This document shows, one piece after another, positions 1 to 11,440 of a stretch of 11,440 nucleotides of DNA (its first letter is position 1; each line of letters starts with the position of its first letter). This DNA comes from Streptosporangiaceae bacterium (GTDB lineage: Bacteria > Actinomycetota > Actinomycetes > Streptosporangiales > Streptosporangiaceae), in assembly GCA_025934635.1 (NCBI GenBank), contig JAICWX010000272.1:1-11440 (forward strand), given 5' to 3'. Position numbers and translations under genes: made by a program. Below the pieces are notes generated by a model. It did not search any database. It was not told the DNA's origin and saw only the letters and a program-made list of their open reading frames with translations.

Positions 1-109
1 AGGCTGGCCAGATGTGTCGCTCCGGCTACTGGACTGCTATACACATGTGTCCTACGGTGGCTGTCATGACAGGTCGCCGGGGACCAGCGCGCCGGACGGG
101 CCGCGGGCG

Positions 110-760
110 GTGAGCCAGCCCGCCCCTCGGAGCCCCGCCTCTGGGAATAGGGCGCAGGCTGATCCCGGCGCGGCGGCGCGGCGGCTGTTCGGGCTGCGCG
201 ACGAGCCGACCGGCGCCCTGGGCGGCCAGGCGGACGCGGTGGCCGCGGCCTGCCACGCGATGGCGGTGCGGTTTCACCGGGGCGGGCGGCTGGTGGTGTT
301 CGGCACCGGCGGGGCCAGCGCCGATGCGCAGCACGTGGCGGTGGAGTTCGTGCACCCGGTCATCGTGGGCAAGCGCGCGCTGCCGGCCATCGCGCTGACC
401 GCCGACGTGGCCACCGTCACCGGGATCGCCGAACGCGACGGGATCGCCGCGATCTTCGCCCACCAGCTCAGGTACCTGGCCGGCCCGGCCGACATCGCGC
501 TGGGCATCTCCTCCGATGGGGAGAGCCCGAGCGTGCTGGCGGGGCTCGAGACGGCCCGGGAGCTCGGCTTGCTGACCGTGGCCCTGGTGGGCGGCGACGG
601 CAGCGCGGCCGGCAAGGCGGCCGAGCACGTGCTGGTGGCCGGCTCCTCCGATCCGCGCGTGGTCAAGGAGATGCACGTGACTCTGTACCACGTCCTCTGG
701 GAACTGGTCCACGTGTTCTTCGAGCAACCGGGCGTACTGGGACCTGGAGTTGTCGCATGA
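110..760 (+). CDS. SIS-domain protein A, GmhA-like, in hydrogenase maturation operon
   Basis: Sugar isomerase (SIS) fold protein of the GmhA (sedoheptulose-7-phosphate isomerase) type, about 216 residues from GTG 110; substrate unknown. The P-loop-like motif reads GTGGASAD (residues 65-72) where GmhA has GNGGS. The second loop reads SSDGES (134-139) where GmhA has STSGNS. Against my recollection of E. coli GmhA, the metal ligands His61, Glu65 and His180 are kept as H75, E79 and H194, while Gln172 is replaced by K186. The GmhA Asn-Asp pair (93-94) is Glu-Arg here. The frame is open back to the window edge, and GTG 14 and GTG 47 are alternative starts. GTG 110 gives a family-like length and leaves the AT-richer first 100 bases non-coding, though its ribosome site is weak. 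The stop overlaps the next gene as ATGA. Fold is near certain, biochemical role is not. Confidence 0.85.
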   Translation: MSQPAPRSPASGNRAQADPGAAARRLFGLRDEPTGALGGQADAVAAACHAMAVRFHRGGRLVVFGTGGASADAQHVAVEFVHPVIVGKRALPAIALTADVATVTGIAERDGIAAIFAHQLRYLAGPADIALGISSDGESPSVLAGLETARELGLLTVALVGGDGSAAGKAAEHVLVAGSSDPRVVKEMHVTLYHVLWELVHVFFEQPGVLGPGVVA

Positions 761-984
761 GCGAGCCGGAGGAGGCGAGCGAGTGCACGGGCGAAGTCTG
801 CATTACGTGCTCCGACATGGCCGTCGAGGTCACCGTGGTCCGGCTGCTCGCGGACCAGATGGCGGTGGTCGATACCGGGGCGGGCGAGGAAACGGTGAGC
901 GTGGCCCTGGTGACCGCCGGGGCGGGCGACACGATCCTGGTGCACGCCCGCGAGGCGATCGCCGTGGTAGGCGCCCGTGAATGA
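757..984 (+). CDS. HypC/HupF-family hydrogenase chaperone, divergent Cys-rich form
   Basis: A 75-residue small beta-barrel protein that I assign to the HypC/HybG/HupF family. The family-like features are a VTVVRLL strand, a DTGAGEETVSVALV segment and a GDTILVHAREAIAVV ending, resembling the GDWVLIHVGFAL segment of the canonical HypC encoded downstream. It lacks the Met-Cys start that canonical HypC uses to bind iron and HypD. Instead it has three N-terminal cysteines, C10, C15 and C18, in ECTGEVCITCSD. Canonical HypC is a chaperone that carries the Fe(CN)2CO unit from HypD to the hydrogenase large subunit. This paralogue could serve a specific large subunit, bind a metal, or act with the flanking SIS proteins. 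Its ATG overlaps the stop of SIS protein A (ATGA) and its end overlaps SIS protein B by 8 bp, so translation is coupled. A GGAG lies 7 bases before the start. Confidence 0.8.
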   Translation: MSEPEEASECTGEVCITCSDMAVEVTVVRLLADQMAVVDTGAGEETVSVALVTAGAGDTILVHAREAIAVVGARE

Positions 985-1642
985 CGACCTGGCCTCGCTG
1001 TACCCGTTCCTGTACTCCGACACCGGCGACCTGACGGCCGTGCTCGACCAGGTGCGCGCCTCGACCGTGGCCAAGGCGGCTGAGGTCGGGGAACTGCGCC
1101 GTGCGGTCGGCGAACGGGACGGGACGCGGATCGCCGAGTGCGCGCGGCAGGCCGCGGCCCGGTTCGCCCGGGGCGGGCGGCTGTTCGCCTTCGGCAACGG
1201 CGGCAGCGCCACCGACGCCGCCCAGCTGGCCACGTTGTTCCTGAATCCTGCGGGCAGCGCTCCCCCGCTGCCCGCGTTCGGGCTGGCCAACGACACCTCG
1301 GTGATCACCGCGCTGGCCAACGACGTGGGTCCCGAGGTGATCTTCGCCCGGCAACTGGCCGCGTTCGGCGGCCGGGACGACATCGCGGTCGGGTTGTCGA
1401 CCAGCGGGAACTCCGAGAACCTGCTGCGCGCCTTCGACGAGGCGAGCCGGCGGGGGATGCTCACCATCGGGCTGGCCGGCTACGACGGCGGCCAGATGGC
1501 CGAGCTGGACAGCATCGACTACCTGTTCGTGGTGCCGTCGTCATCGGTGCACCGGGTCCAGGAAGCACAGACCACGATCTACCAGGTGCTCTGGGAGCTG
1601 ACCGCAGAGGAGATAGCACATGTGCCTCGGCATACCCGGTGA
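977..1642 (+). CDS. SIS-domain protein B, GmhA-like, metal ligands lost
   Basis: A 221-residue SIS-fold protein starting at GTG 977. It keeps the classical GmhA substrate loops: GNGGS (73-77), Asn-Asp (115-116), STSGNS (141-146) and the RVQE helix with Q195 matching GmhA Gln172. The other three metal ligands are replaced: His61 by Q83, Glu65 by L87 and His180 by Q203. A zinc-dependent isomerase reaction by this protein alone is therefore unlikely. It probably binds a sugar phosphate or pairs with SIS protein A, which has the opposite pattern. The last residues (EIAHVPRHTR) are written over the start of hypC, a 23-bp overlap that contains no domain residues. Tight coupling to hypC and to the HypC-like gene ties it to [NiFe]-hydrogenase maturation or function. 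Databases often label such proteins phosphoheptose isomerase, which the residues do not support. Confidence 0.87.
   Translation: MNDDLASLYPFLYSDTGDLTAVLDQVRASTVAKAAEVGELRRAVGERDGTRIAECARQAAARFARGGRLFAFGNGGSATDAAQLATLFLNPAGSAPPLPAFGLANDTSVITALANDVGPEVIFARQLAAFGGRDDIAVGLSTSGNSENLLRAFDEASRRGMLTIGLAGYDGGQMAELDSIDYLFVVPSSSVHRVQEAQTTIYQVLWELTAEEIAHVPRHTR
1606..1613 (+). promoter_or_regulatory. Shine-Dalgarno site of hypC
   Basis: AGAGGAGA ends 6 bases before ATG 1620, inside the end of SIS protein B. It is the clearest ribosome site of the + strand operon. It supports the ATG that gives the obligatory Met-Cys N-terminus of HypC. Confidence 0.75.
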
Positions 1643-1892
1643 GGTTATCGAGCTCCACCCGGAGCAGCCCGACCTGGCCAAGGTGAACGTGAGCGGGGTC
1701 CGGCGGATGATCAACATCGGCCTGCTCTCCGACGACCCGCCGGCGCCCGGCGACTGGGTGCTCATCCACGTCGGCTTCGCCCTGTCGAAGATCGACGAGC
1801 AGGAGGCGGCCGCCACCCTGCAGTACCTGGAGGGCGTCGGGCAGTCCTACGAGGACGAGCTCGCGGCGCTCAAGGAATCAGTAATCGAGTAG
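1620..1892 (+). CDS. hypC: Hydrogenase maturation chaperone HypC
   Basis: Canonical HypC, 90 residues, beginning MCLGIPGEVIEL. Cys2, exposed after Met removal, is the residue known in the family to bind HypD and the Fe(CN)2CO unit before delivery to the hydrogenase large subunit in the cytoplasm. The beta-barrel core includes VNVSGVRRMINIGLL and GDWVLIHVGFALSKID, followed by a C-terminal helix EQEAAATLQYLE. The length is normal. The start has a strong ribosome site and overlaps SIS protein B by 23 bp. The C-terminus ends ESVIE and lies in the first copy of an 18-bp tandem duplication whose second copy (ESLIE plus stop) follows immediately after the stop. hypD begins 35 bp downstream, the only real gap in the operon. 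Confidence 0.97.
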   Translation: MCLGIPGEVIELHPEQPDLAKVNVSGVRRMINIGLLSDDPPAPGDWVLIHVGFALSKIDEQEAAATLQYLEGVGQSYEDELAALKESVIE

Positions 1893-1910
1893 GAATCACT
1901 GATCGAGTAG
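1875..1910 (+). repeat. 18-bp tandem duplication across hypC stop codon
   Basis: Copy 1 (1875-1892) is GAATCAGTAATCGAGTAG and copy 2 (1893-1910) is GAATCACTGATCGAGTAG. They abut directly and match at 16 of 18 positions. Each encodes ES(V/L)IE followed by TAG in the hypC frame, so the stop codon itself is duplicated. The second copy forms most of the hypC-hypD gap and ends just before an AGGAG. Confidence 0.9.
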
Positions 1911-1927
1911 AGGAGCGTGGGGGAACG

Positions 1928-3070
1928 ATGCGGTTCGTCGACGAATTCCGTGACGCCGACAAGGCCCACGCGCTGGCCGCGAAGATCGCGGCGCTGTGCG
2001 AGCCCGGGCGCCAGTACAAGCTGATGGAGGTGTGCGGCGGGCACACCCACACGATCTACAAGCACGGCCTCGAGGACTACCTGCCGGAGTCGGTCCAGCT
2101 GGTGCACGGGCCGGGCTGCCCGGTCTGCGTGATCCCGATGGGGCGGGTGGACGACGCGATCCACCTGGCGTCGCAGCCGGACGTGATCATGACGTCGTTC
2201 GGCGACATGATGCGGGTGCCGGGCAGCGGCGGCTCGTTCTTCGACGCCAACGCCGAGGGCACCACCATCAAGATGGTGTACTCGCCGCTCGACTCGCTCA
2301 AGCTGGCCCGGCAGAACCCGGACAAGCAGGTCGTGTTCATGGCGATCGGGTTCGAGACGACCGCGCCGTCCACCGCGATGACCATGATCAGGGCGGCGGC
2401 CGAGGGGCTGACGAACTTCTCGGTGTTCTGCAACCACGTCACCATCGTGCCGGCCATCAAGGCCATCCTGGACTCGCCCGACCTGCGGCTCGACGGCTTC
2501 ATCGGGCCGGGGCACGTGTCCACGGTGATCGGCTGCCGGCCGTACGAGTTCATCGCGCGGCAGTACGGCAAGCCGGTGGTGGTGGCCGGGTTCGAGCCGC
2601 TGGACATCCTGCAGTCCATCTACATGCTGATGGTCCAGCTGTCGCAGGGCCGGGCCGAGGTGGAGAACCAGTACGCGCGGGTGGTGCCGTGGGACGGCAA
2701 CCTGGTCGCGCTCAAGGCCATCGGCGGGACGATGGAGCTGCGGCCCTACTTCGAGTGGCGCGGCCTCGGCTTCATCTCGCACTCGGCGCTGCAGGTGCGG
2801 GAGAAGTACGCCGCCATGGACGCCGAGCGCCGGTTCCAGGTGCCCGGGGTGCGGGTGGCCGACCCCAAGGCCTGCCAGTGCGGCGAAGTGCTCAAGGGCG
2901 TGCTGAAGCCGTGGGAGTGCAAGGTGTTCGGCACCGCGTGCACCCCGGAAACACCGATCGGCACCTGCATGGTGTCCCCCGAGGGCGCGTGCGCCGCTTA
3001 CTACAACTTCGGCCGGATGAACCGGACCCGGGTCGCCGAGGCGGGCGTCGCCGGGATGGCCGGGTCATGA
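1928..3070 (+). CDS. hypD: Hydrogenase maturation protein HypD
   Basis: HypD, 380 residues, full length. It is the iron-sulfur scaffold on which, with HypC, the Fe(CN)2CO group is assembled. Motifs visible in order: CGGHTH (36-41, with the key Cys36), GPGCPVC (61-67), GFETTAPS (141-148), CNH (168-170) and GPGHVS (193-198). The C-terminal cysteine cluster that holds the [4Fe-4S] centre includes CQCGEVLKG (316-324), PWEC (C331), GTAC (C338), C347 and C355. All known functional cysteines appear present. The start ATG 1928 is preceded by AGGAG and GGGGGAA. The last about 20 residues after NFGR are a short variable tail. The stop overlaps the hypE start as ATGA. There is no sign of frameshift. Confidence 0.98.
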   Translation: MRFVDEFRDADKAHALAAKIAALCEPGRQYKLMEVCGGHTHTIYKHGLEDYLPESVQLVHGPGCPVCVIPMGRVDDAIHLASQPDVIMTSFGDMMRVPGSGGSFFDANAEGTTIKMVYSPLDSLKLARQNPDKQVVFMAIGFETTAPSTAMTMIRAAAEGLTNFSVFCNHVTIVPAIKAILDSPDLRLDGFIGPGHVSTVIGCRPYEFIARQYGKPVVVAGFEPLDILQSIYMLMVQLSQGRAEVENQYARVVPWDGNLVALKAIGGTMELRPYFEWRGLGFISHSALQVREKYAAMDAERRFQVPGVRVADPKACQCGEVLKGVLKPWECKVFGTACTPETPIGTCMVSPEGACAAYYNFGRMNRTRVAEAGVAGMAGS

Positions 3071-4215
3071 GCCGGAGCTGGATCGACGAGGCCCTTGCCG
3101 AGCACGAAGGTCTCGCCGCCGAGGGGCGGCGTCAGCTGCCGCTGGCCGATCGGGAACAGCAGGTGCTGGACCGGATCGACCGGGCGCGCCGGCGCCGCCC
3201 CAAGGTAAGGGAAGAGCGCGTCACCATGTCGCACGGAGCCGGCGGCAAGGCGACGCACACCCTGATCGAGGCGGTCTTCCTGGACGCGTTCCGCAACCCG
3301 CTGCTGGAGCCGATGGAGGACGCGGCCCAGCTGACGGTGGGCGGCGCCCGGATCGCGCTCACCACCGACTCCTACGTGGTGTCCCCGCTGTTCTTCCCGG
3401 GCGGCGACATCGGCGACCTGGCCGTCAACGGCACCGTCAACGACCTGGCCGTGTCCGGGGCCCGGCCGCTGTACCTGTCGGCCGGGTTCATCCTGGAAGA
3501 AGGCTTTCCCGTCGCCAGCCTGCAGCGGGTCACCGAGTCGATGCGGGCGGCGGCCGAGGCGGCCGGAGTGCAGGTGGTGACCGGCGACACCAAGGTGGTG
3601 CAGAAGGGCAAGGCCGACGGCTGCTACATCAACACGGCCGGCGTCGGCGTGCTGGAGCGGGACGTCTCCCTGGGGGTAGCTCAGGCCCGGCCGGGCGACG
3701 CCATCGTCGTGTCCGGGCCGATCGGCGACCACGGCATCACGATCATGCTGGCCCGCGGCGAGCTGGACATCGAGGCGGACATCGTCTCGGACACCGCGCC
3801 GCTCAACGGGCTGGTGAACGGGCTGCTCGACGCGGTTCCCGGTGTCCGGGCGATGCGCGACGCGACCCGCGGCGGGGTGGCCACCATCCTCAACGAGATC
3901 GCCCGGGCGGCCGACGTCGGCGTGCTGGTGCACGAGAACGAGATCCCGGTCCGGGAAGAAGTCCGCGGCGCGTCGGAGCTGCTCGGCATCGACCCGATGT
4001 ACGTGGCGTGCGAGGGCCGCCTGGTCGCGGTGGTGCCCGGCCTGGACGCGGACCGGGCGGTGGCCGCGCTGCGCGCCCATCCGCTCGGCGACCAGGCCGC
4101 GGTGATCGGGCACGTCCGGGCCGAACAGCCGGGCATCGTCCAGATCAAGACCGCGTTCGGCGGGACGCGGATCGTGGACCTGCTGGTGGGTGATCCGCTC
4201 CCCCGGATCTGCTAA
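3067..4215 (+). CDS. hypE: Hydrogenase maturation carbamoyl dehydratase HypE
   Basis: HypE, 382 residues. It is an ATP-dependent enzyme of the PurM/ThiL/SelD fold that dehydrates the carbamoyl group placed by HypF on its C-terminal cysteine, giving the thiocyanate used as the cyanide ligand. The protein ends in the diagnostic PRIC, with acceptor Cys382. Other motifs are SHGAGGK (55-61), TTDSYVVSPLFFPGGDIG, VNGTVNDLAVSGA, VTGDTKVV, GPIGDHGI and RDATRGGVA. It is longer than usual because of an N-terminal stretch of about 50 residues, helical and Arg-rich (for example RIDRARRRRPKVREE), before the conserved core. ATG 3226 would begin inside the core strand, so the ATGA-coupled ATG 3067 is preferred. 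The stop overlaps the hypF stop on the other strand, leaving no room for a terminator. Confidence 0.97.
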   Translation: MSRSWIDEALAEHEGLAAEGRRQLPLADREQQVLDRIDRARRRRPKVREERVTMSHGAGGKATHTLIEAVFLDAFRNPLLEPMEDAAQLTVGGARIALTTDSYVVSPLFFPGGDIGDLAVNGTVNDLAVSGARPLYLSAGFILEEGFPVASLQRVTESMRAAAEAAGVQVVTGDTKVVQKGKADGCYINTAGVGVLERDVSLGVAQARPGDAIVVSGPIGDHGITIMLARGELDIEADIVSDTAPLNGLVNGLLDAVPGVRAMRDATRGGVATILNEIARAADVGVLVHENEIPVREEVRGASELLGIDPMYVACEGRLVAVVPGLDADRAVAALRAHPLGDQAAVIGHVRAEQPGIVQIKTAFGGTRIVDLLVGDPLPRIC

Positions 4216-6452
4216 AGCTGGGCGGCGGCGACCACGGCCTGGCCGAGGCTGATGCCGCCGTCGTTGCACGGGACCCGGGAGTGCAGCAGGACGCGGAAGC
4301 CGCGCGCCTCGAGGCGGGTGACGGCCGCGTTCAGCAGCAGCAGGTTCTGGAACACGCCGCCGGAGAGCGCCACCGTGCTCAGGCCGCGGGTTTCGCGCAG
4401 CCGCTGGCAGCCCGCTTCGATCGGGGCGGCGACCCCGTGGTGAAAGCGGGCGGCGATGAGGGGGGCGGGGACGCCACTCGTTAGGTCGCCTGCGAGAGCG
4501 TGCAGGAGATCGGACCCGCGGGCTCGGAACGGGCCTTCGCCGGTCTCGAGGCCGGCTGGGTACGCTTCCAGCTCGGCCGGGTCGGCGAGCTGCTCGAGCT
4601 CGATGGCGGCCTGGCCCTCGTAGTTGATCGTGTCGCGCACGCCGAGCAGGGCGGCGGCCGCGTCGAACAGGCGGCCCGCGCTGGAGGTCAGCGGGGAGTT
4701 CACGCCCTTGGCGGCCAGCTTTGTCACGGCGGCCCACTGGTCCGGGTGGCGTTTCGCCACCGCGGTGGCGGCGTCGCCGAGGTAGGCGGCGGCCATGCGC
4801 CAGGGCTGGCGGATGGCGGCCGCGCCGCCGGGCATCGGGACCGGGGCGAGGTGGCCGCCGCGCTCGTAGCTTTGCGTGTCGGCGATCAGGAACTCGCCGC
4901 CCCAGATGGTGCCGTCGGGGCCGTAGCCGGTGCCGTCGAAGGCCACCCCGATGACCGGGCCGCTTTCGCCGTTGTCGGCCAGGCAGGAGGCGATGTGGGC
5001 GTGGTGGTGCTGCACGCCGATCAGGTCCAGGTCCTCGGCGTCGGCCAGGTCGAGGGCGTACTTGGTGGACAGGTACTCGGGGTGCCGATCGTGCGCGATC
5101 ACCTGCGGCTCGATGTCGAACAGGCGGCGGAAGTGCGCGATGCCCTCGGTGAACGAGCGCAGCGTCTCCGCGTTCTCCAGGTCCCCGATGTGGTGCGAGA
5201 TGAACGCGTGCCGTCCCTGGGCCAGGCAGAACGTGTTCTTGAGCTCGGCTCCGCAGGCCAGCACGGGGCGGGGGAAGGTACGGGTGACGGTCAGCGGCTC
5301 GGGAACGTAGCCGCGGGAGCGTCTTATCAGCGCGGGGCGGCCGCGGACGGTGCGGGCCACCGAGTCGTCGGTCCTGACGTGGATGGCGCGGTCGTGGGCG
5401 AGGAAGGCGTCGGCGATGTTTTCCAGCCTTTCGCGGGCCTCCTCGTCGCGGTAGACGATCGGCTCATCGGAGACGTTTCCGCTGGTCAGGACGATAGGTT
5501 TCGTTGTCGCGGCAAGGAGCAGGTGGTGCAGCGGCGTGTACGGGAGCATGATGCCGAGCTGGCGGTTGCCGGGAGCGGTGGCCGCGGCGATCGTGGCGTC
5601 GCGGTTCCTGGGGAGCAGGACGATCGGGCGGGACGGGCTGGTCAGGAGGACGGCGGCCGCGTCGTCGATTCCGGCTAGTTCGCTGGCCGCGGCCAGGCTG
5701 GCGGCCATGACGGCGAAGGGCTTGTCTTCGCGGTGCTTGCGGGAGCGAAGGCCGGCGACGGCGGCGTCGGAGGTGGCGTCGGCGGCCAGGTGGTAGCCGC
5801 CCAGGCCCTTGATCGCGAGGATCTGGCCCTGCTGGAGTCGTTCGGCGGCCTTGCGGATGGGGTTTTTATCGTCGCCGTCCAGGGCGAGGCGGGGGCCGCA
5901 GGCGGAGCAGCAGACGGGCTGGGCGTGGAAGCGGCGGTCGGCCGGGTCGTGGTACTCGGCCCGGCAGCGGCCGCACATGGCGAACGGCGCCATCGTGGTG
6001 CTGGGGCGGTCGTAGGGGACGTCGCGGACGATGGTGAAGCGGGGACCGCAGTTGGTGCAGTTGATAAAGGGGTACTGGTAACGCCGGTCAGCCGGGTTTC
6101 TGAGTTCCTCAAGGCAGTCCGCGCATACGGTGGTGTCGGCCGAGATCAGCGTCCGGCGCGGGCCGGAGGTTTCGCTCGCCGCGATGACAAATGATTCTTC
6201 CGAACGGGCGGGGCTGATTGCCCGGATCGTTACCTTCTCGATCCGGGCCAGCGGGGGTGCGTCCCGCTCGAGCCGGTGCAGGAACTCGTCGACGGCGGCC
6301 CGCGGCCCCTCGACTTCGGCGAAGACGCCGTCGGTGTCGTTGCCGACCAGACCGGTCAAGCCAAGGCCGGTGGCCAGGGAATACACGAACGGGCGGAAGC
6401 CGACGCCCTGCACGACGCCCTCCACCCGCAGGGCCGTGCGCACGGTCCCCAT
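4212..6452 (-). CDS. hypF: Carbamoyltransferase HypF
   Basis: HypF, 746 residues. It converts carbamoyl phosphate and ATP into carbamoyl-AMP and transfers the carbamoyl group to HypE, the first step of cyanide-ligand synthesis. The acylphosphatase domain holds VQGVGFRPFV (14-23). Two zinc fingers follow: C110/C113/C132/C135 and C160/C163/C182/C185, each a CX2C-X18-CX2C pattern. Then come a YrdC-like domain from about 197 (KGLGGYHLAADATS, RKHREDKPFAVM) and a Kae1-like carbamoyltransferase domain from about 400 (AHDRHPEYLSTKYA, HHHAH at 482-486, AFDGTGYG, SGGVFQN). An in-frame ATG at 6500 exists, but ATG 6452 has a full GGAGGTGA site 7 bases upstream and matches the family start. The gene is convergent with hypE and divergent from the MFS gene, so it has its own promoter. 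Confidence 0.97.
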   Translation of the reverse strand: MGTVRTALRVEGVVQGVGFRPFVYSLATGLGLTGLVGNDTDGVFAEVEGPRAAVDEFLHRLERDAPPLARIEKVTIRAISPARSEESFVIAASETSGPRRTLISADTTVCADCLEELRNPADRRYQYPFINCTNCGPRFTIVRDVPYDRPSTTMAPFAMCGRCRAEYHDPADRRFHAQPVCCSACGPRLALDGDDKNPIRKAAERLQQGQILAIKGLGGYHLAADATSDAAVAGLRSRKHREDKPFAVMAASLAAASELAGIDDAAAVLLTSPSRPIVLLPRNRDATIAAATAPGNRQLGIMLPYTPLHHLLLAATTKPIVLTSGNVSDEPIVYRDEEARERLENIADAFLAHDRAIHVRTDDSVARTVRGRPALIRRSRGYVPEPLTVTRTFPRPVLACGAELKNTFCLAQGRHAFISHHIGDLENAETLRSFTEGIAHFRRLFDIEPQVIAHDRHPEYLSTKYALDLADAEDLDLIGVQHHHAHIASCLADNGESGPVIGVAFDGTGYGPDGTIWGGEFLIADTQSYERGGHLAPVPMPGGAAAIRQPWRMAAAYLGDAATAVAKRHPDQWAAVTKLAAKGVNSPLTSSAGRLFDAAAALLGVRDTINYEGQAAIELEQLADPAELEAYPAGLETGEGPFRARGSDLLHALAGDLTSGVPAPLIAARFHHGVAAPIEAGCQRLRETRGLSTVALSGGVFQNLLLLNAAVTRLEARGFRVLLHSRVPCNDGGISLGQAVVAAAQL

Positions 6453-6459
6453 CGGTCCC

Positions 6460-6467
6460 TCACCTCC
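6460..6467 (-). promoter_or_regulatory. Shine-Dalgarno site deciding the hypF start
   Basis: On the minus strand GGAGGTGA lies 7 bases before ATG 6452. It is an eight-base match to the anti-Shine-Dalgarno sequence and selects this start over the upstream in-frame ATG at 6500. Confidence 0.85.
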
Positions 6468-6498
6468 CGGCCCACCGAGGATATTCCCCGCGCGCTGC

Positions 6499-6504
6499 AA
6501 TATA
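6499..6504 (-). promoter_or_regulatory. Possible hypF -10 element
   Basis: TATATT on the minus strand, about 46 bases before the hypF start, lies in an AT-rich pocket of otherwise GC-rich DNA. No convincing -35 is seen at 16-19 bp; the region that would hold it overlaps the palindrome at 6510-6528. This is a pattern-based guess only. Confidence 0.35.
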
Positions 6505-6509
6505 GATGA

Positions 6510-6528
6510 AACAAATCATTGATCTGTT
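6510..6528. promoter_or_regulatory. 19-bp palindrome, candidate operator between hypF and MFS gene
   Basis: AACAAATCATTGATCTGTT is symmetric about T6519 with 8 of 9 base pairs matching; the mismatch is 6514/6524. It lies between the divergent hypF and MFS genes, next to a TATATT on the hypF side and overlapping a TTGATC on the transporter side. Size and symmetry fit a dimeric helix-turn-helix repressor or activator. The half-site TGAT/ATCA recalls Crp/Fnr-type boxes, but the spacing between half-sites does not fit those consensus sites. The bound regulator is unknown. Confidence 0.55.
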
Positions 6529-6548
6529 ACCTGGTGGGGGGTTACCTT
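6519..6548 (+). promoter_or_regulatory. Possible promoter of the MFS transporter gene
   Basis: TTGATC (6519-6524) and TACCTT (6543-6548) are 18 bp apart and fit loose actinobacterial -35 (TTGAnn) and -10 (TAnnnT) patterns, about 50 bases before ATG 6600. The -35 overlaps the palindrome. GTTACCT also occurs twice here, at 6526-6532 and 6541-6547, 15 bp apart on the same face spacing of about 1.5 turns. Confidence 0.35.
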
Positions 6549-6599
6549 CGAGTCACTATCAGACCTGGGCCTGAGCGCTCCACGGTAAGGGGTGACCGC

Positions 6600-8687
6600 A
6601 TGTCAGGGACCGCCGTGCATGACGTCCCAAGTCGGCCCGGACGGGCCGGCTCGCTAATCAAACGCCAGCTCGACCACTATCCCGAGACCGGGCCCAGGAT
6701 CATGTACCTGGCCATCACGGTGCTGGCCACGATCACGCTGTACTACGAGCTGTACGTCGGCGGCTCGGTGTCCACGCTGATCCTGACGAACCTGCACATG
6801 AACTTCACGTTCTACGTGCTGACGCTGGCGTTCGGGGCCCTGATCGGAGCGGCCGGCTCGCTGTTCGCCGGGATCACCGACCGGCTCGGCCGGGCCAACC
6901 TGGTCGTGTTCGGCCTGCTGTTCACCGGGATCTTCACGCTGTTCATCCTGCCCGCCGCGACCGACAAATGGGTCTTCACCATCGAGGGCTTCGTGGTCGG
7001 CTTCGTGGAGGGCGTCTGCCTGGTCGCCACTCCCGCACTGATCAGGGACTTCTCCCCCCAGGTGGGGCGGGCCACGGCCATGGGCTTCTGGACCAGCGGC
7101 CCGGTGCTCGGCAGCCTGATCGTCTCGGTGGTGGGCACCTGGACCATCCCGGCGGTCGTCAACGACCCGCGGTTCTGGACCCACGAGTACCGCATCTGCG
7201 GCATCGCCGGCCTGATCGTCTTCCTGATCGCGCTGGTCGGCCTCAAGGAGCTGTCCCCGGCGCTGCGCGACCAGCTGATGGTCAGCATGCGCGACCGCGC
7301 GCTGGTCGAGGCCAAGGCCAAGGGCCTGACCGAGGAAGACATCGCCGCGGCCCTGCGGCACCCGTTCCGCCAGCTGATGAAGCCCGACGTCATCATCTCC
7401 TCGATCGCAGTGTCGATCATGCTGCTGTTCTATTACACGTCCGTCGCGTTCAGCGTGATCTACCTGACCACCGTGTTCTCCAACATCACCCTCAAGGACG
7501 CCAACGGCCTGGGCAACTGGGCCTGGGGCTTCAACGTCATCGCCGTGATCCTGGTCGGGATCATCTCCGACCGGTTCCGGGTGCGTAAGCCGTTCATGGT
7601 GATCGGCGGGATACTAGCCGCGGTGTCGGTCGTGCTCTACCTGGAGCATGCGGGGAACCATACCGGCTACTACACCCTGGCGATCAACCTGGCCCTGATC
7701 TCGCTCGGCCTGGGCATCGCCTACACCCCGTGGATGGCCAGCTTCACCGAGACGGTGGAGGCGCGCAACCCGGCGCTCACCGCGACTGGCCTGGCCATCT
7801 GGGGCCTGATCATCCGGATCGTGGTGGCGGCCTCGTTCTTCCTGGTCCCGGTGTTCATCAACTCGGTGACGCCGCTGGTCAACTACGGCGGCACGGTGTC
7901 GGCCTACGCGACCCAGTACGCCAGCCAGATCGCCTTCGCGACCGCCCACCCCGACGTGGTGGCGGCGGCCCAGAAGGTCCCGCCGAACGTCATCGCCGCC
8001 GCGCAGGCTATCCCGCCGGCGGTCACCGCCACCGCGCAGAAGATCCCGCCGGATGTCCTGGCCATCGCCCAGAAGGACGCGACCCAGCTGGCGAACGCGC
8101 AGAAGTTCCAGCCCGAGCTCACGGTGATCCAGGCCCACCCGGCGCTGTTCACCCAGCTGGCTAAGTACTCGGACCCGTCCAAGATCCCGCCCGCGCTGGT
8201 GGGCCAGGCGATCGCCGCAGCCGGCGGAGGCGCCAAGGGCATCGGCATCCTGACGACCATCTCGAACAACAAGGACGCCATCAACGGCGTGATCGCGGTC
8301 GCGCCTGACCTGCAGAAGGTCGCGCCGTACGCGGCCGACCTGAGGACCATCGCGCCGTACTCGACGCAGCTGACCACGATCGCGCCGTACGCGGCCGAGC
8401 TGACCAAGATGGCTCCGTACGGGGCGCAGCTGACCGCCCTGTCCAAGGTGCCGCCGCAGGTCTTCCCCTACCTCCAGGCGCACGGCAAGGCCGTGCAGGA
8501 CGCCGCGGCCAAGACGGCCGGCCAGTGGAAGACGTGGTACTGGATCTGCTTCGGCGGGATCATCTTCTTCCTGCTGAGCATCCCGCTGCTGCGCGGCCGC
8601 TGGCGGACGCGTGACGCCAAGGCCGACGAGGCCGCGCACGAGGCCAAGGTTCAGGAGGAGCTGGCCAAGCTGCAGGCCACCGTCTAG
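6600..8687 (+). CDS. MFS transporter with large repeat-bearing extracytoplasmic loop
   Basis: A 695-residue major facilitator superfamily membrane protein. Twelve hydrophobic segments can be placed: TM1 about 34-54 and TM2-TM6 up to residue 215; a charged cytoplasmic loop about 216-262; TM7-TM11 up to about 420; and TM12 about 646-666. The motif A variant AGITDRLGR follows TM2, and the matching IISDRFRVRKP follows TM8. The oddity is a loop of about 225 residues between TM11 and TM12, on the outer face, carrying an 11-residue repeat rich in AQ(K/A)(V/I)PP and a 10-residue APY repeat. The length is therefore far above the usual 400-500. ATG 6600 is chosen for AAGGGGTGA just upstream; a TTG at 6519 would add 27 unlike residues. 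Substrate is unknown: a metabolite:proton symporter is likely, but hydrogenase relevance (for example nickel uptake) is not supported. Confidence 0.88.
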   Translation: MSGTAVHDVPSRPGRAGSLIKRQLDHYPETGPRIMYLAITVLATITLYYELYVGGSVSTLILTNLHMNFTFYVLTLAFGALIGAAGSLFAGITDRLGRANLVVFGLLFTGIFTLFILPAATDKWVFTIEGFVVGFVEGVCLVATPALIRDFSPQVGRATAMGFWTSGPVLGSLIVSVVGTWTIPAVVNDPRFWTHEYRICGIAGLIVFLIALVGLKELSPALRDQLMVSMRDRALVEAKAKGLTEEDIAAALRHPFRQLMKPDVIISSIAVSIMLLFYYTSVAFSVIYLTTVFSNITLKDANGLGNWAWGFNVIAVILVGIISDRFRVRKPFMVIGGILAAVSVVLYLEHAGNHTGYYTLAINLALISLGLGIAYTPWMASFTETVEARNPALTATGLAIWGLIIRIVVAASFFLVPVFINSVTPLVNYGGTVSAYATQYASQIAFATAHPDVVAAAQKVPPNVIAAAQAIPPAVTATAQKIPPDVLAIAQKDATQLANAQKFQPELTVIQAHPALFTQLAKYSDPSKIPPALVGQAIAAAGGGAKGIGILTTISNNKDAINGVIAVAPDLQKVAPYAADLRTIAPYSTQLTTIAPYAAELTKMAPYGAQLTALSKVPPQVFPYLQAHGKAVQDAAAKTAGQWKTWYWICFGGIIFFLLSIPLLRGRWRTRDAKADEAAHEAKVQEELAKLQATV
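7956..8054 (+). repeat. 33-bp tandem repeat coding 11-residue AQ-PP units in MFS loop
   Basis: Three consecutive units at residues 453-485 of the transporter: VVAAAQKVPPN, VIAAAQAIPPA and VTATAQKIPPD. A fourth decayed unit starts VLAIAQK. DNA copies differ mainly at wobble positions, so the protein pattern is under constraint or is old. It lies on the outer side of the membrane. Confidence 0.85.
8319..8438 (+). repeat. 30-bp tandem repeat coding 10-residue APY units in MFS loop
   Basis: Four units at residues 574-613: VAPYAADLRT, IAPYSTQLTT, IAPYAAELTK and MAPYGAQLTA, preceded by a partial VAPDLQK. Spacing is an exact 10 residues. It suggests a regular short-helix or solenoid-like structure outside the cell. 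Confidence 0.87.
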
Positions 8688-8716
8688 GGGTTATCGTCTG
8701 ACTCCGGAGAACCTGT

Positions 8717-8746
8717 CCTCCCCCAGGGCCCTGGCCCTGGGGGAGG
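8717..8746. terminator. Strong bidirectional hairpin between MFS and TetR genes
   Basis: CCTCCCCCAGGGCC and GGCCCTGGGGGAGG form a perfect 14-bp inverted repeat around a 2-base centre (realistically a 13-bp stem with a CCTG loop). It sits 29 bp after the MFS stop and 10 bp before the TetR stop on the other strand. There is no long U run, as is common in actinobacteria. The position between two converging genes supports termination in both directions. Confidence 0.85.
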
Positions 8747-8756
8747 ATTCGGCTTT

Positions 8757-9503
8757 CTAGGGGGTGTTGCCGCGCGGGGGGATGCCCTCGATGATGGCCT
8801 GCTGGAGCCGGTTGGCCGTCTCGACGTCGGGCTTGCGCGCGGCGATCACGTCGGCGTAGAGGAACGACTCGCCCAGCCGGACGAGCGCGTAGGCCAGGGC
8901 GCTCGGCTCGGTGATCGGGACCAGGCCGAACTCTTCCATGTCGCGGCGGAGCGAGACCTCGTTGAAGGCCACGATCCCGCTCTGCACCCGGCCGCGCGGG
9001 TCGGTGAGCACGCGCAGGGTCAGGGCGGGCTCGTCGTCGAGCAGTCTTCTCAGTCCTTTGCTGCCGGCCACCATGGCGTTGATGTGGCGGATGGTGCCGG
9101 GGGTGTGCAGCTCGCCTTCGGGTCGTTCGGCTTCCCAGCGCTCGACGGCGATCTCGAGCATGCGCTCGGTCAGCCGCCACAGGGCCTGGCTGATCAGTTC
9201 CTCGCGGCTGCCGACGCGCCGGAACAGGGTCACCCGGGACACGCCGAGCTCGTCGGCCAGCCCCTGCATGTCCAGGCGGCGGCCCTCGTAGATCCAGCGG
9301 GCGGCGGTGCCCACGATGCGGGCGGCGTTGCTGGTGGCGGTCTTGGTGGCTGGCTTCGCGGCGGTCTTGGTCGCGTCGCTGGCGGCGGTCTTGGTCGCGG
9401 TGCTGGTGGCGGTCTGGTCGGCGGCGATGCTGGCAGCGCTGGGACCGGTCGCGCCGGGGCCGGGCCCGTGGCCCGGACGGCGCTTCAGGGTCGGTGCCTT
9501 CAT
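8757..9503 (-). CDS. TetR/AcrR-family regulator, QsdR-like
   Basis: A 248-residue transcription regulator. The TetR-type helix-turn-helix is at about 78-110 (LDMQGLADELGVSRVTLFRRVGSREELI). The C-terminal half, with EPALTLRVLTDPRGRVQSGIV and LVRLGESFLYADVIAARKPDVE, resembles the QsdR group; QsdR itself represses lactone-degrading genes in Rhodococcus. Residues 1-60 are a low-complexity Ala/Thr/Lys/Pro tail with three copies of an 8-residue unit (ATKTAASD, ATKTAAKP, ATKTATSN), unusual for TetR proteins and positively charged. No internal start lies between the tail and the helix-turn-helix, so the tail is probably translated. The ribosome site before ATG 9503 is weak (GGCGAG). The gene converges with the MFS gene and diverges from a phosphotransferase gene. 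Its target may be itself, the MFS gene or the phosphotransferase gene; ligand unknown. Confidence 0.85.
   Translation of the reverse strand: MKAPTLKRRPGHGPGPGATGPSAASIAADQTATSTATKTAASDATKTAAKPATKTATSNAARIVGTAARWIYEGRRLDMQGLADELGVSRVTLFRRVGSREELISQALWRLTERMLEIAVERWEAERPEGELHTPGTIRHINAMVAGSKGLRRLLDDEPALTLRVLTDPRGRVQSGIVAFNEVSLRRDMEEFGLVPITEPSALAYALVRLGESFLYADVIAARKPDVETANRLQQAIIEGIPPRGNTP
9337..9419 (-). repeat. 24-bp tandem repeat in TetR N-terminal tail
   Basis: On the + strand GCGGTCTTGGT starts at 9337, 9361 and 9385, exactly 24 bp apart, with a decayed fourth start at 9409. On the coding strand it gives the ATKTA-containing octapeptide repeats. Copy number could vary by slippage. Confidence 0.75.
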
Positions 9504-9563
9504 AGTCTCGCCACCCTGCCTTGTGCGGAAAAGTCCACCACGCTGTCTACGTTAACCCGCGCG

Positions 9564-9575
9564 ACCGGATCCGGT
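9564..9575. promoter_or_regulatory. 12-bp perfect palindrome, candidate operator upstream of TetR gene
   Basis: ACCGGATCCGGT lies in the 146-bp gap between the divergent TetR gene (start 9503) and the phosphotransferase gene (start 9650). The outer TAACC (9553-9557) and GGTTA (9573-9577) add a partial inverted repeat. The position fits an autoregulatory TetR site, but short GC-rich palindromes occur by chance, so this is weak. Confidence 0.35.
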
Positions 9576-9649
9576 TAGCCCGGTGCCCCCCGTGCGTCCA
9601 GATCTCGTACCAGGGGGGTTCCGGTCCCGTTCCAGCCGAAGATAGGACG

Positions 9650-11119
9650 ATGAGCGGTGAGCTGACAGGCGGGTACCACTCGGCGCCGGTGCGGCGGGGG
9701 GACGTGGTCATCAGGGCCGCGGGGCCGTGGAGCCGGAACGTGGAGGCCTTGCTCGGCCACCTCGAGCGAGCCGGTTTCCGGCAGGCACCCGCCTACCTGT
9801 CCCGTGACGAGGACACGGGAACCGAGACGCTCAGCTTCGTCGCCGGGCAGGCGGGCACCTATCCGCTCACCGCGGAGCAACGTTCGGACCAGGCCCTGGT
9901 GAACGTAGCCCGGGCTATCCGGGTCATGCACGACGCCACCGCCGGGTTCACCGCTCCCGAGCCGGACCGCTGGCAGTACCGGGCGGTGATCCCGGCCGAG
10001 GTCGACTGCATCGGCCACAACGACCTCGGGCCCTACAACATGGTCTTCGACGGGAGCCGCGTCGCGGGCATCATCGACTGGGACTTCGCCGGGCCGTCCA
10101 GCCGCGCCTGGGACCTGTGCTACGCCGCGCACCGGTTCGTCCCGCTGTCGGCGCCGCGCTCCACGGTGGCGTTCGGCTGGGATCCGGTCCCCGATCAGGC
10201 AGCCCGGCTACGCCTGTTCGCCGGCGCCTACGGCGGCGCCGTCGACGTACCGGGCCTACTTGACCTGCTGACCGTGCGGCTCTCCGCGATCTGCGCCCAC
10301 TGCTCACAGGCTGATCTGGGCGGCCGTGGCGGCCTGGGCGGGGATGGCGGCCAGCAGCCCGGGGACCAGTGCGCGGGCCAGGCTCTTCTCTTTTGCGCCG
10401 GCGGGGCGCAGGCCGATGGCCCGCTCCACGTTGAAGGCCACCCAGTCCAAGCCGATCATCATGGACTGGCCCAGGTCCAGCGGTCCGAGCGTGGTGTCGT
10501 CCCCGCCTTCTCGACGATACGAGCGGACCACTTCGCGGGCGATAGCCAGATCTGTCCAGGCGGCCAGCGACATGGCCACGTCGGCCAGCTCGCGACGGGG
10601 AACGAGCGGGGCGGCCAGGTCCCAGTCGCACAGCACCGGTCCGGCTCTGGTGAGCAGGAGGTTCTTCTGGTCGATGTCGCCGTGCGTCATCACCTCCTGA
10701 TCCGGCTGGAATCCGGCTTCGCGGGCCAGGTCAGCGATCAGCGTTACGGCGGGGGCGGCGGCTTCCATCGCGGCGGTCCAGGTTTCCTGGCTCTGGCGGG
10801 CGGCTTCGGTCAGCTCGGGCCAGCGGGCGGCGGTCACGGTGCTGGTGACGGGGAACAGGTCGCGGTCCCGGGGGGTGATGCGGAGGCCGTGCAGGGTGGC
10901 CAGGGTGCGGCCTGCCCATTGGGCGGTCTCCGGGCCGACAGGGCCGGGGTGGACGGGGGTGCCATCGGTCCAGTGGTGGACGCGGACCGGGGCGTCCGGG
11001 GCGACGTGGCTGGACTGGCTGGCTTGGCCGGGCTGGCTGGCGAGGCTGGGCTGGCTGGCGAGGCTGGGCTGGCTGGCGAGGCTGGCTTGGCTGGCTCGGC
11101 TGTGGCGGACCCGGGCTAG
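9650..11119 (+). CDS. Phosphotransferase (APH family), C-terminus lost and replaced by antisense read-through
   Basis: The first about 217 residues (9650-10303) are a small aminoglycoside/choline-kinase-like phosphotransferase. It has GHNDLGPYN with H123, D125 and N130, DWD at 143-145 (Mg-binding Asp143), and the AWDLCYAAHRFVPL segment typical of an actinobacterial group. Substrate unknown. As I recall the family, it continues about 45 residues beyond LLTVRL; here that end is absent. From about 10304 the frame runs through the exact antisense of the opposite-strand kinase gene as Gly/Ala/Gln-rich, non-domain sequence until the stop at 11117-11119, giving 489 residues. This looks like a deletion that joined two genes, leaving either a decayed gene or a chimeric product. 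Catalytic residues are intact, so partial function cannot be excluded. The ORF could be extended upstream to 9521, but ATG 9650 fits the family start. Confidence 0.7.
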   Translation: MSGELTGGYHSAPVRRGDVVIRAAGPWSRNVEALLGHLERAGFRQAPAYLSRDEDTGTETLSFVAGQAGTYPLTAEQRSDQALVNVARAIRVMHDATAGFTAPEPDRWQYRAVIPAEVDCIGHNDLGPYNMVFDGSRVAGIIDWDFAGPSSRAWDLCYAAHRFVPLSAPRSTVAFGWDPVPDQAARLRLFAGAYGGAVDVPGLLDLLTVRLSAICAHCSQADLGGRGGLGGDGGQQPGDQCAGQALLFCAGGAQADGPLHVEGHPVQADHHGLAQVQRSERGVVPAFSTIRADHFAGDSQICPGGQRHGHVGQLATGNERGGQVPVAQHRSGSGEQEVLLVDVAVRHHLLIRLESGFAGQVSDQRYGGGGGFHRGGPGFLALAGGFGQLGPAGGGHGAGDGEQVAVPGGDAEAVQGGQGAACPLGGLRADRAGVDGGAIGPVVDADRGVRGDVAGLAGLAGLAGEAGLAGEAGLAGEAGLAGSAVADPG

Positions 11120-11440
11120 GCAGGTGCCGTCGGCGGGGTTGGGCACGGGCTGGGGCGCATTCACGTCGGCAGCGATGGCCTGCTGCTCGAACGACCACGC
11201 CGCGGCCAGCCACTCCTGCCAGTGCGGATCCGCCCAGGGATTACGCAGCTCCTTGACCGCGTAGCGGCGGCCGCCGGCGTCCAGCCGGTAGACCCGGTTC
11301 GACCAGGCTCCGCCCACCGGTTCCCAGCCCGCCACCGGGCCGGGGAGAGCAAACGCTTCGATCACCGCCGCCGGATCAGGCGCTGGGTCGGGCGCGTCTG
11401 GCTCTGGCGCGTCTGGCTCTGGCGCGTCTGGCTCTGGCGC
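10304..11440 (-). CDS. Phosphotransferase (APH family) with Ser/Ala/Gln repeat insert; 5' end open at window edge
   Basis: An aminoglycoside phosphotransferase-fold protein; small-molecule kinase of unknown substrate. Counting from GTG 11365 (353 residues), it has an N-lobe with GGAWSNRVYRL and YAVKELRNPW (Lys38), a catalytic HGDIDQKN (228-235, Asp230) and CDWD (Mg-binding Asp247). Between the two lobes is an insert at 91-120 made of six-residue units such as ASQPSL, coded by an 18-bp repeat. GTG 11365 has no ribosome site, and the same frame is open without a stop to the window edge, coding repeated APEPD units, so the true start may lie beyond 11440. It overlaps the read-through tail of the + strand kinase by 816 bp. 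This strand is the real coding one, as shown by its motifs. Confidence 0.85.
   Translation of the reverse strand, partial: APEPDAPEPDAPEPDAPDPAPDPAAVIEAFALPGPVAGWEPVGGAWSNRVYRLDAGGRRYAVKELRNPWADPHWQEWLAAAWSFEQQAIAADVNAPQPVPNPADGTCLARVRHSRASQASLASQPSLASQPSLASQPGQASQSSHVAPDAPVRVHHWTDGTPVHPGPVGPETAQWAGRTLATLHGLRITPRDRDLFPVTSTVTAARWPELTEAARQSQETWTAAMEAAAPAVTLIADLAREAGFQPDQEVMTHGDIDQKNLLLTRAGPVLCDWDLAAPLVPRRELADVAMSLAAWTDLAIAREVVRSYRREGGDDTTLGPLDLGQSMMIGLDWVAFNVERAIGLRPAGAKEKSLARALVPGLLAAIPAQAATAAQISL
11008..11097 (-). repeat. 18-bp tandem repeat, five copies, in kinase gene
   Basis: On the + strand the unit GGCTGGGCTGGCTGGCGA occurs perfectly at 11044-11061 and 11062-11079. Diverged copies lie at 11008-11025, 11026-11043 and 11080-11097. 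Being a multiple of three it keeps frame and codes Ser/Leu/Ala/Ser/Gln/Pro hexapeptides on the minus strand. It is a likely length-variable site. Confidence 0.9.
11391..11440 (-). repeat. 15-bp tandem repeat coding APEPD units, cut by window end
   Basis: On the + strand GGCGCGTCTGGCTCT is repeated identically at 11391-11405, 11406-11420 and 11421-11435, and a fourth copy begins at 11436. In the frame of the downstream kinase it codes Ala-Pro-Glu-Pro-Asp units, followed by degenerate APDP units up to GTG 11365. Identical copies imply recent expansion. Total copy number cannot be seen. Confidence 0.9.

Follow-up and report, generated by a model that had tools for sequence, protein, structure and literature searches.

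Two adjacent SIS-domain proteins of a Streptosporangiaceae hydrogenase maturation operon divide the active-site residues of GmhA and may form a heteromeric enzyme

GmhA, the sedoheptulose 7-phosphate isomerase of heptose synthesis, assembles its active sites from more than one subunit. Passages of PMC5705639 describe the B. pseudomallei enzyme as binding zinc through H64, E68, Q175 and H183 (61, 65, 172 and 180 in E. coli GmhA, whose numbering is used below) and its activity as half-of-sites. Zinc ligands from two chains and residues of three chains at each site are described in part of PMC11056994, and for the M. tuberculosis enzyme a passage of PMC7705670 presents a model built by homology, in which one monomer contributes the Glu and a different monomer the Gln, along with loop contacts by Asn, Gly and Ser/Thr. 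Here we describe two adjacent genes for SIS-domain proteins, A and B, in 11,440 nucleotides of a Streptosporangiaceae bacterium (assembly GCA_025934635.1, contig JAICWX010000272.1, positions 1 to 11,440; the whole stretch is called the window). The window begins at A, and its first plus-strand genes run A-Cp-B-hypC-hypD-hypE, overlapping or nearly so, where Cp is a second, divergent HypC-like protein. We read A and B as two unlike subunits of a heteromeric SIS-fold enzyme with a composite active site, devoted to hydrogenase maturation, and assign this reading a probability of about 0.7.

SIS genes have been seen in such surroundings before. Published passages mention a putative gmhA in group 1h/5 hydrogenase operons (PMC5900883), SIS_2 among the conserved neighbours of hydrogenases (PMC12727194), GmhA among the maturation proteins of A. 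ferrooxidans (PMC7735108), gmhA in the hyp region of M. smegmatis (PMC5445863) and a hydrogenase operon with gmhA genes in Saccharopolyspora erythraea (PMC3359211). An industrial strain of the last species carries frameshifts in the gmhA genes SACE_3069 and SACE_3071 and a nonsense change in hypD (SACE_3073), as if the two gmhA genes and hypD had decayed together (same source). A predicted GmhA-HypD-HypE link was termed 'not well understood' in a passage of PMC3231954. Judged by titles and passages rather than whole texts, the literature searched gave no account of a division between A and B, of their fusions or of a composite site.

Division of GmhA active-site residues between A and B

Both proteins belong to the SIS_2 family (PF13580; A 60.7 bits, B 55.3 bits, gathering cut-off 27). 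Against TIGR00441, the GmhA equivalog model with a curated cut-off of 209.45 bits, they scored 102.4 and 116.7 bits, respectively, which is far too low for membership. A single SIS protein of C. necator reached 148.1 bits, and the natural A-B fusion of locus L068 attained 250.4 bits only when its two domains were summed. Relatives of known structure found by sequence were GmhA and DiaA, with two additional matches of the MurNAc-6-phosphate etherase type for A; among the relatives of A that were listed, those with an organism name were Streptosporangiaceae.

In alignments with E. coli GmhA and with GmhA sequences of known structure, A keeps His61, Glu65 and His180 but has Lys for Gln172, GTGGA and SSDGES in its substrate loops and ER for ND. 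B keeps GNGGS, ND, STSGNS and Gln172 but has Gln, Leu and Gln for His61, Glu65 and His180. This confirms the residues listed in the initial annotation, which had been made from the letters of the window. Neither chain holds all four zinc ligands, as A is without Gln172 and B without the other three.

A profile of A returned at least 325 relatives from GTDB genome contigs, and the loci of the best 80 of these 325 were examined. The division was then counted over 105 A and 102 B domains, omitting domains of fewer than 130 residues or less than 70 bits, the loci L081-L086, L090, L092 and L093 (copies of other loci) and L116; L057 was counted as fused although Cp separates A and B there. Among the A domains H61 and E65 are invariant (105/105 each) and H180 is present in 104, with one gap, while position 172 carries Lys 84 times, Gln 20 times and Arg once. 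Loop residues survive in A unevenly (S119 in 88, N52 in 64, T120 in 15, S124 in 7, S55 in 6, D94 in 2 and S121 in none), and A carries novelties of its own, Asp at position 121 in 88 domains and Cys at position 124 in 77. In B, N52, S55, D94, S119, T120, S121 and S124 are each kept in 102/102 and Q172 in 101 (one gap), and no domain has His61 or Glu65. H180 is kept in 95 of the B domains, the remainder being three Gln, two Asn, one Asp and one gap; the window's B shows the rare Gln. The same picture emerged from 121 fused proteins, in which the A half has H61, E65, K172 and H180 in all 121, and the B half has N52, S55, D94, S119, T120, S121, S124 and Q172 in all 121 and H180 in 120.

The complementary pattern seen in the window is therefore conserved family-wide for H61, E65 and H180 of A and for the loops and Gln172 of B. 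It does not extend to the loss of H180 from B, which is local to the window's relatives and not a family trait, nor to a complete loss of the loops from A. Random loss of ligands was rejected, given that the pattern holds both in the A and B domains counted and in the fused proteins. As judged by these alignments, the complementary division is a deep family trait and not chance.

B lies downstream of A on the same strand in all of the best 80 of 325 loci, being incomplete in four of them (L003 and L006 show only its start before the contig end; in L051 and L070 it is in pieces). Cp stands between A and B in 74, and in six (L054, L059, L068, L069, L070 and L075) A and B share one open frame, that of L070 being broken within B. 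In a sample of 296 actinobacterial genomes, drawn evenly, both domains share one open frame in 23 of 29 loci (L087-L115), three of which are copies from among those six fusions. A search with one fusion found, among the matches listed, 120 proteins of 392-480 residues covering 88-100 % of it. A-B fusions are thus natural and common in many lineages.

The expectation that A and B always co-occur was largely borne out, with two exceptions. In G031, a fragmented assembly, A is broken and Cp and B are intact; in G252 an A-Cp remnant is without the His61/Glu65 stretch, and no B was found in that genome. Mycobacterial-type loci have a strongly decayed A with Cp fused to its C-terminus, and the gene for B follows (L140 and L161). 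The His61/Glu65 stretch survives in both of these A-Cp proteins, for which a domain search gave only a HypC match and none to SIS_2. In addition, a tblastn match revealed a SIS-like stretch with no annotated gene between hypE and a glutaredoxin gene on a Sulfobacillus acidophilus plasmid (L147:5001-5990).

These observations also bear on the idea that A and B are independent homo-oligomers, A binding metal and B binding phosphosugar. That each protein has its own gene, as in the window and 74 of the best 80 of 325 loci, would suit such an arrangement, as would the Lys172, Asp121 and Cys124 common in A. It leaves unexplained the fusions, the adjacency in all 80 loci, the predicted pseudodimer fold of a fusion and the existence of single proteins with both residue sets (both described below), and we regard it as very unlikely.

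Undivided relatives, predicted fold and a proposed composite site

Of 159 plasmid records, 11 were examined. In seven proteobacterial plasmid hyp operons a lone SIS gene immediately precedes hypD (C. necator, A. carboxidovorans, M. huakuii, B. guangxiense, S. alaskensis, N. pentaromativorans and M. parvus); since L144 and L145 are nearly identical, the seven amount to about six. The gene follows hypC in six operons and hypF in M. parvus. All seven proteins keep H61, E65, Q172, H180, N52, S55, D94, S119, T120 and S121, and six keep S124. They share the motifs HxAVEFxHP and YHxLW with A and, in five cases, LYPFL with B; an undivided form would be expected to unite the signatures of both proteins in this way. 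No HypC-like Cp was found in any of these seven loci.

In an unrooted tree of 91 SIS rows, built by a quick method, A, B, the single proteins and GmhA formed four clades with Shimodaira-Hasegawa-like approximate likelihood ratio support of 100, 96, 99 and 100, respectively. One old duplication followed by complementary decay would therefore fit. The initial annotation had held that A or B often found alone with a complete active site would speak against the hetero-oligomer. Hyp operons do contain single SIS proteins with all the ligands, yet these make up a third clade that is neither A nor B.

The tree and the scores together address a simpler account, in which A and B are ordinary heptose isomerases that lie in the operon by chance. 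Source annotations often name proteins of the A and B types D-sedoheptulose 7-phosphate isomerase, and the summed domains of L068 exceed the TIGR00441 cut-off. Yet A and B individually fall below it, the hyp context is conserved, and ordinary GmhA forms a clade of its own (three rows). The gmhA-type gene of L163 adjoins a gene for a HAD-type hydrolase, the class to which GmhB belongs. On curated cut-offs, clade and gene context we rejected the ordinary heptose pathway, which we consider highly improbable.

The structure prediction called for in the initial annotation was carried out on one natural A-B fusion as a single chain. The AlphaFold2 model is confident (predicted template modelling score, pTM, 0.92) and superposes whole on double-SIS proteins, which identifies the predicted fold as a GlmS-like SIS pseudodimer; the double-SIS structural matches listed have only 8-16 % identity to the fusion. 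Glucokinase regulatory protein was also among the structural matches. In the passage of PMC7705670 cited above, the split of the modelled M. tuberculosis site into Glu on one side and Gln with loops on the other is the division seen between A and B. The proposal of a hetero-oligomer with composite sites is thus supported by the complementary residues, the adjacency, the fusions and the predicted pseudodimer.

We propose the following sequence of events. An undivided, GmhA-like homo-oligomeric ancestor, still seen as the single SIS protein before hypD, would have duplicated once, with the direction presumably from single to pair. Since several chains of GmhA combine to make an active site, the two copies could then lose different parts of it. 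A would supply His61, Glu65 and, we infer, His180; B would supply Gln172 and the phosphosugar loops, adding a second His180 in most species. Of the two sites in an A:B pair, one would be a working composite and the other dead, and a functional active site probably needs both proteins. Where A and B are separate chains they would bind each other. The composite site may hold a metal, zinc by analogy with GmhA, and would act on a phosphorylated substrate by GmhA-like enediol chemistry.

The pair might instead be a heteromer without catalytic function, a scaffold or a sensor of phosphosugars. B would bind the ligand through its intact loops, A would only brace B, and the two would make HypCD assembly depend on metabolic state. 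Regulators are found among other SIS proteins, with glucokinase regulatory protein matching in structure and DiaA in sequence, most substrate contacts are lost in A, and A is fused to a HypC-like protein in mycobacterial-type loci. Such a function leaves unexplained why H61 and E65 of A are invariant, surviving even in the decayed proteins of L140 and L161, and why all seven undivided proteins keep the four metal ligands. We therefore consider it unlikely.

Association with one HypD clade and hydrogenase maturation

In the 296 actinobacterial genomes HypD was present in 35 of 37 with A/B and in 117 of the 259 others. The A/B genomes were assigned by two adjacent matches, with G182 (contig end) and G096 (confirmed) added and G031 excluded. 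Near A, the best 80 of 325 loci showed a HofG-like hydrogenase large subunit in 60, another type in one and none in the stretch examined in 19; that of L010 matches HofG (5aa5) at 995 bits. The window, starting at A, shows no large subunit within its length. The label group 1h for the HofG-like, actinobacterial-type hydrogenase follows PMC5900883.

Identity to the window HypD was 61-90 % in 96 SIS-linked rows and 49-54 % in four rows labelled HypX-linked; 44 other rows fell at 46-52 % (34) or 64-86 % (10), L164 and L166 having been entered as 'none' although HypX lies about 12 kb away. A quick HypD tree was built from 95 of these 144 rows, for which every fourth SIS-linked row of L001-L080 was taken, the window HypD being the query and not a row. 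All 48 SIS-linked rows fell into one clade of 58 (support 84), which spans Proteobacteria, Thermus, Sulfobacillus and Actinobacteria. The C. necator row linked to HypX lay outside it, as did 36 further rows from Actinobacteria. Ten rows inside the clade had no nearby SIS gene: G016, G092, G148 and G274 have A/B elsewhere in the genome, G138 and G158 are represented by short contigs with no A/B match, and G147, G166, G169 and G252 look like true absences. The A/B genes accompany hyp and hydrogenase genes and are linked with a single HypD clade, in agreement with the tie to hydrogenase maturation first claimed from gene coupling in the window. Where the A-B fusion occurs in Thermus, in Sulfobacillus and in several loci of Actinobacteria, the region also contains a glutaredoxin-like gene, annotated as Uxx-star family in Thermus (L139:10073-10330; L147:6147-6374; L129, L130, L136, L169, L170 and L206).

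HypC proteins are defined by an N-terminal Met-Cys, which the window HypC has (MCLGIPG) and Cp does not; Cp begins MSEPEEASEC and carries CITCSD. Window Cp scored 25.6 bits against PF01455, under the gathering cut-off of 28.5, while its relatives exceed it (L119 40.8 bits, L140 44.9 bits). Proteins with the CxTC[SG]D motif, such as those at L140:8270-8977 and L139:6507-6731, were found in 23 further loci beyond the 80-locus set (L018 was counted with Cp in the 80-locus count but is absent from the later one), and all are linked to SIS genes or to the SIS-linked HypD clade. None was found in the HypX loci examined, in five of the six fused loci of the best 80 of 325 or in several fused loci of the 296-genome sample. 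Because A and B adjoin hypC, Cp and hypD, their position suggests that they act at the stage at which Fe(CN)2CO is loaded on HypCD.

This raises the question of the CO ligand. The C. necator protein encoded after hypE in the other hyp operon, annotated 'hydrogenase maturation protein' and containing formyl-transferase and ECH_1 (enoyl-CoA hydratase) domains, was used as query; we take it to be HypX. It matched in 4 of 47 A/B genomes and in none of the remaining 43 (E 1e-20), and in 8 of the 296 actinobacterial genomes (E 1e-50; at most four candidates scored per genome), among which G086 also has A/B. Five actinobacterial HypX loci (L164-L167 and L204) carry the other HypD type, and no SIS protein was found in them. 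L149 (G175) and L150 (G041) have a HofG-like hydrogenase and a different HypD type with neither SIS nor HypX beside them; elsewhere in the genome G175 gave no A/B match and G041 one lone GmhA-like match. We know of no link between SIS proteins and CO. A firm claim that A/B replaces HypX was rejected, as HypX is rare, G086 has both and L149 and L150 have neither. In a narrower version, the A:B site, or the undivided SIS protein, would take the part that HypX plays elsewhere. Serving one HypD clade, it would use enediol or lyase chemistry to turn a phosphorylated metabolite into the Fe-bound CO or an immediate precursor of it. We consider this quite unlikely, and because L149 and L150 carry the hydrogenase with neither gene, the case for any part of A/B in supplying the CO ligand is a weak one. 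The operon's GmhA in A. ferrooxidans is at an elevated level in anaerobic growth, according to a passage of PMC7735108, which counts against a purely oxic role.

Several points weigh against a heteromeric enzyme devoted to maturation. The usual Lys172, Asp121 and Cys124 of A mean that A might have a site of its own. The chain contributing His61 and His180 was sought in PMC5705639, PMC7705670 and PMC11056994, and the passages available assigned a chain only to the Glu and the Gln; we tentatively place both His with the Glu, because His61 is one helical turn from Glu65 and A keeps His180. The HypD clade has a support of only 84, in a tree that was made by a quick method and covers 95 of 144 rows. 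Finally, G147, G166 and G169 share that clade and gave no A/B match, and therefore the pair is not always needed.

If A and B do form such an enzyme, proteins annotated as heptose isomerases become a candidate unrecognized hydrogenase maturation factor in carriers of HofG-like hydrogenases. They would also provide a clean natural case of paralogues that share out a single active site between them, in which the split, the fused and the undivided form all survive, and would make it testable which step of [NiFe]-cofactor assembly needs A/B.

Window features and comparison with known systems

Table 1. Features of the 11,440-nucleotide window.
Feature	Position	Strand	Remarks
Protein A, SIS-domain subunit	110..757	+	GTG start 110, stop 758-760; metal ligands kept, substrate loops decayed
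Alternative A start	14	+	In-frame GTG
A codons for His61 and Glu65 equivalents	332..346	+	332-334 and 344-346, within conserved QHVAVEFVHP; alignment
A C-terminal helix	665..691	+	Lys at Gln172 position 665-667, His180 equivalent 689-691; alignment
Cp, divergent second HypC-like protein	757..981	+	EVCITCSD motif; overlaps A end and B start
Protein B, SIS-domain subunit	977..1639	+	Stop 1640-1642; substrate loops and Gln172 kept, without His61/Glu65
B GNGGS loop	1193..1207	+	N52 and S55 equivalents; sequence
B STSGNS loop	1397..1414	+	S119-S124 equivalents; sequence
B C-terminal helix	1559..1585	+	Gln172 equivalent 1559-1561; Gln at His180 position 1583-1585; alignment
HypC, hydrogenase maturation chaperone	1620..1889	+	PF01455, 89.8 bits; begins MCLGIPG
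HypD	1928..3067	+	
HypE	3067..4212	+	AIRS/AIRS_C
HypF carbamoyltransferase	4212..6500	-	Convergent with hypE
MFS transporter	6519-8684	+	PF07690, 86.7 bits at residues 70-428
APH-type phosphotransferase match	9521-11119	+	PF01636, residues 149-221
Second APH-type phosphotransferase match	10304-11365	-	PF01636; convergent with plus-strand APH gene

Repeats mark two of the remaining genes. Long imperfect repeats follow the MFS domain and look unusual for an MFS protein, with units of 33 and 30 bases at 7971-8075 and 8300-8435 that encode IAPYAAQL-like and AQKIPP-like stretches. The minus-strand APH gene contains an 18-base tandem repeat at 11008-11095 coding for SQPSLA-like units.

Compared with GmhA of E. 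coli and B. pseudomallei, A and B have the same SIS fold and together hold the four zinc ligands and the substrate loops, and GmhA, compared here by sequence, likewise builds its sites from several chains. GmhA is however a homotetramer with all residues in each chain, whereas A and B are split over two genes in a hydrogenase maturation operon and score below the gmhA cut-off. With the isomerase domain of GlmS/GFAT and the double-SIS NagB-II, the A-B fusion shares the predicted arrangement of two SIS domains in one pseudodimer. In contrast to those enzymes, the hydrogenase-linked SIS proteins carry GmhA-type metal ligands, and many species, that of the window among them, encode A and B separately. 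Like HypX, the CO-forming maturase of aerobic hydrogenase maturation, A/B is an accessory beside hyp genes, but the proteins are unrelated and actinobacterial HypX goes with a different HypD group (five loci). The single SIS protein of C. necator pHG1 (H16_RS31885) and its kin resemble A and B in their place beside hypD, their HypD clade and their shared signatures, and differ in keeping all four metal ligands in one gene.
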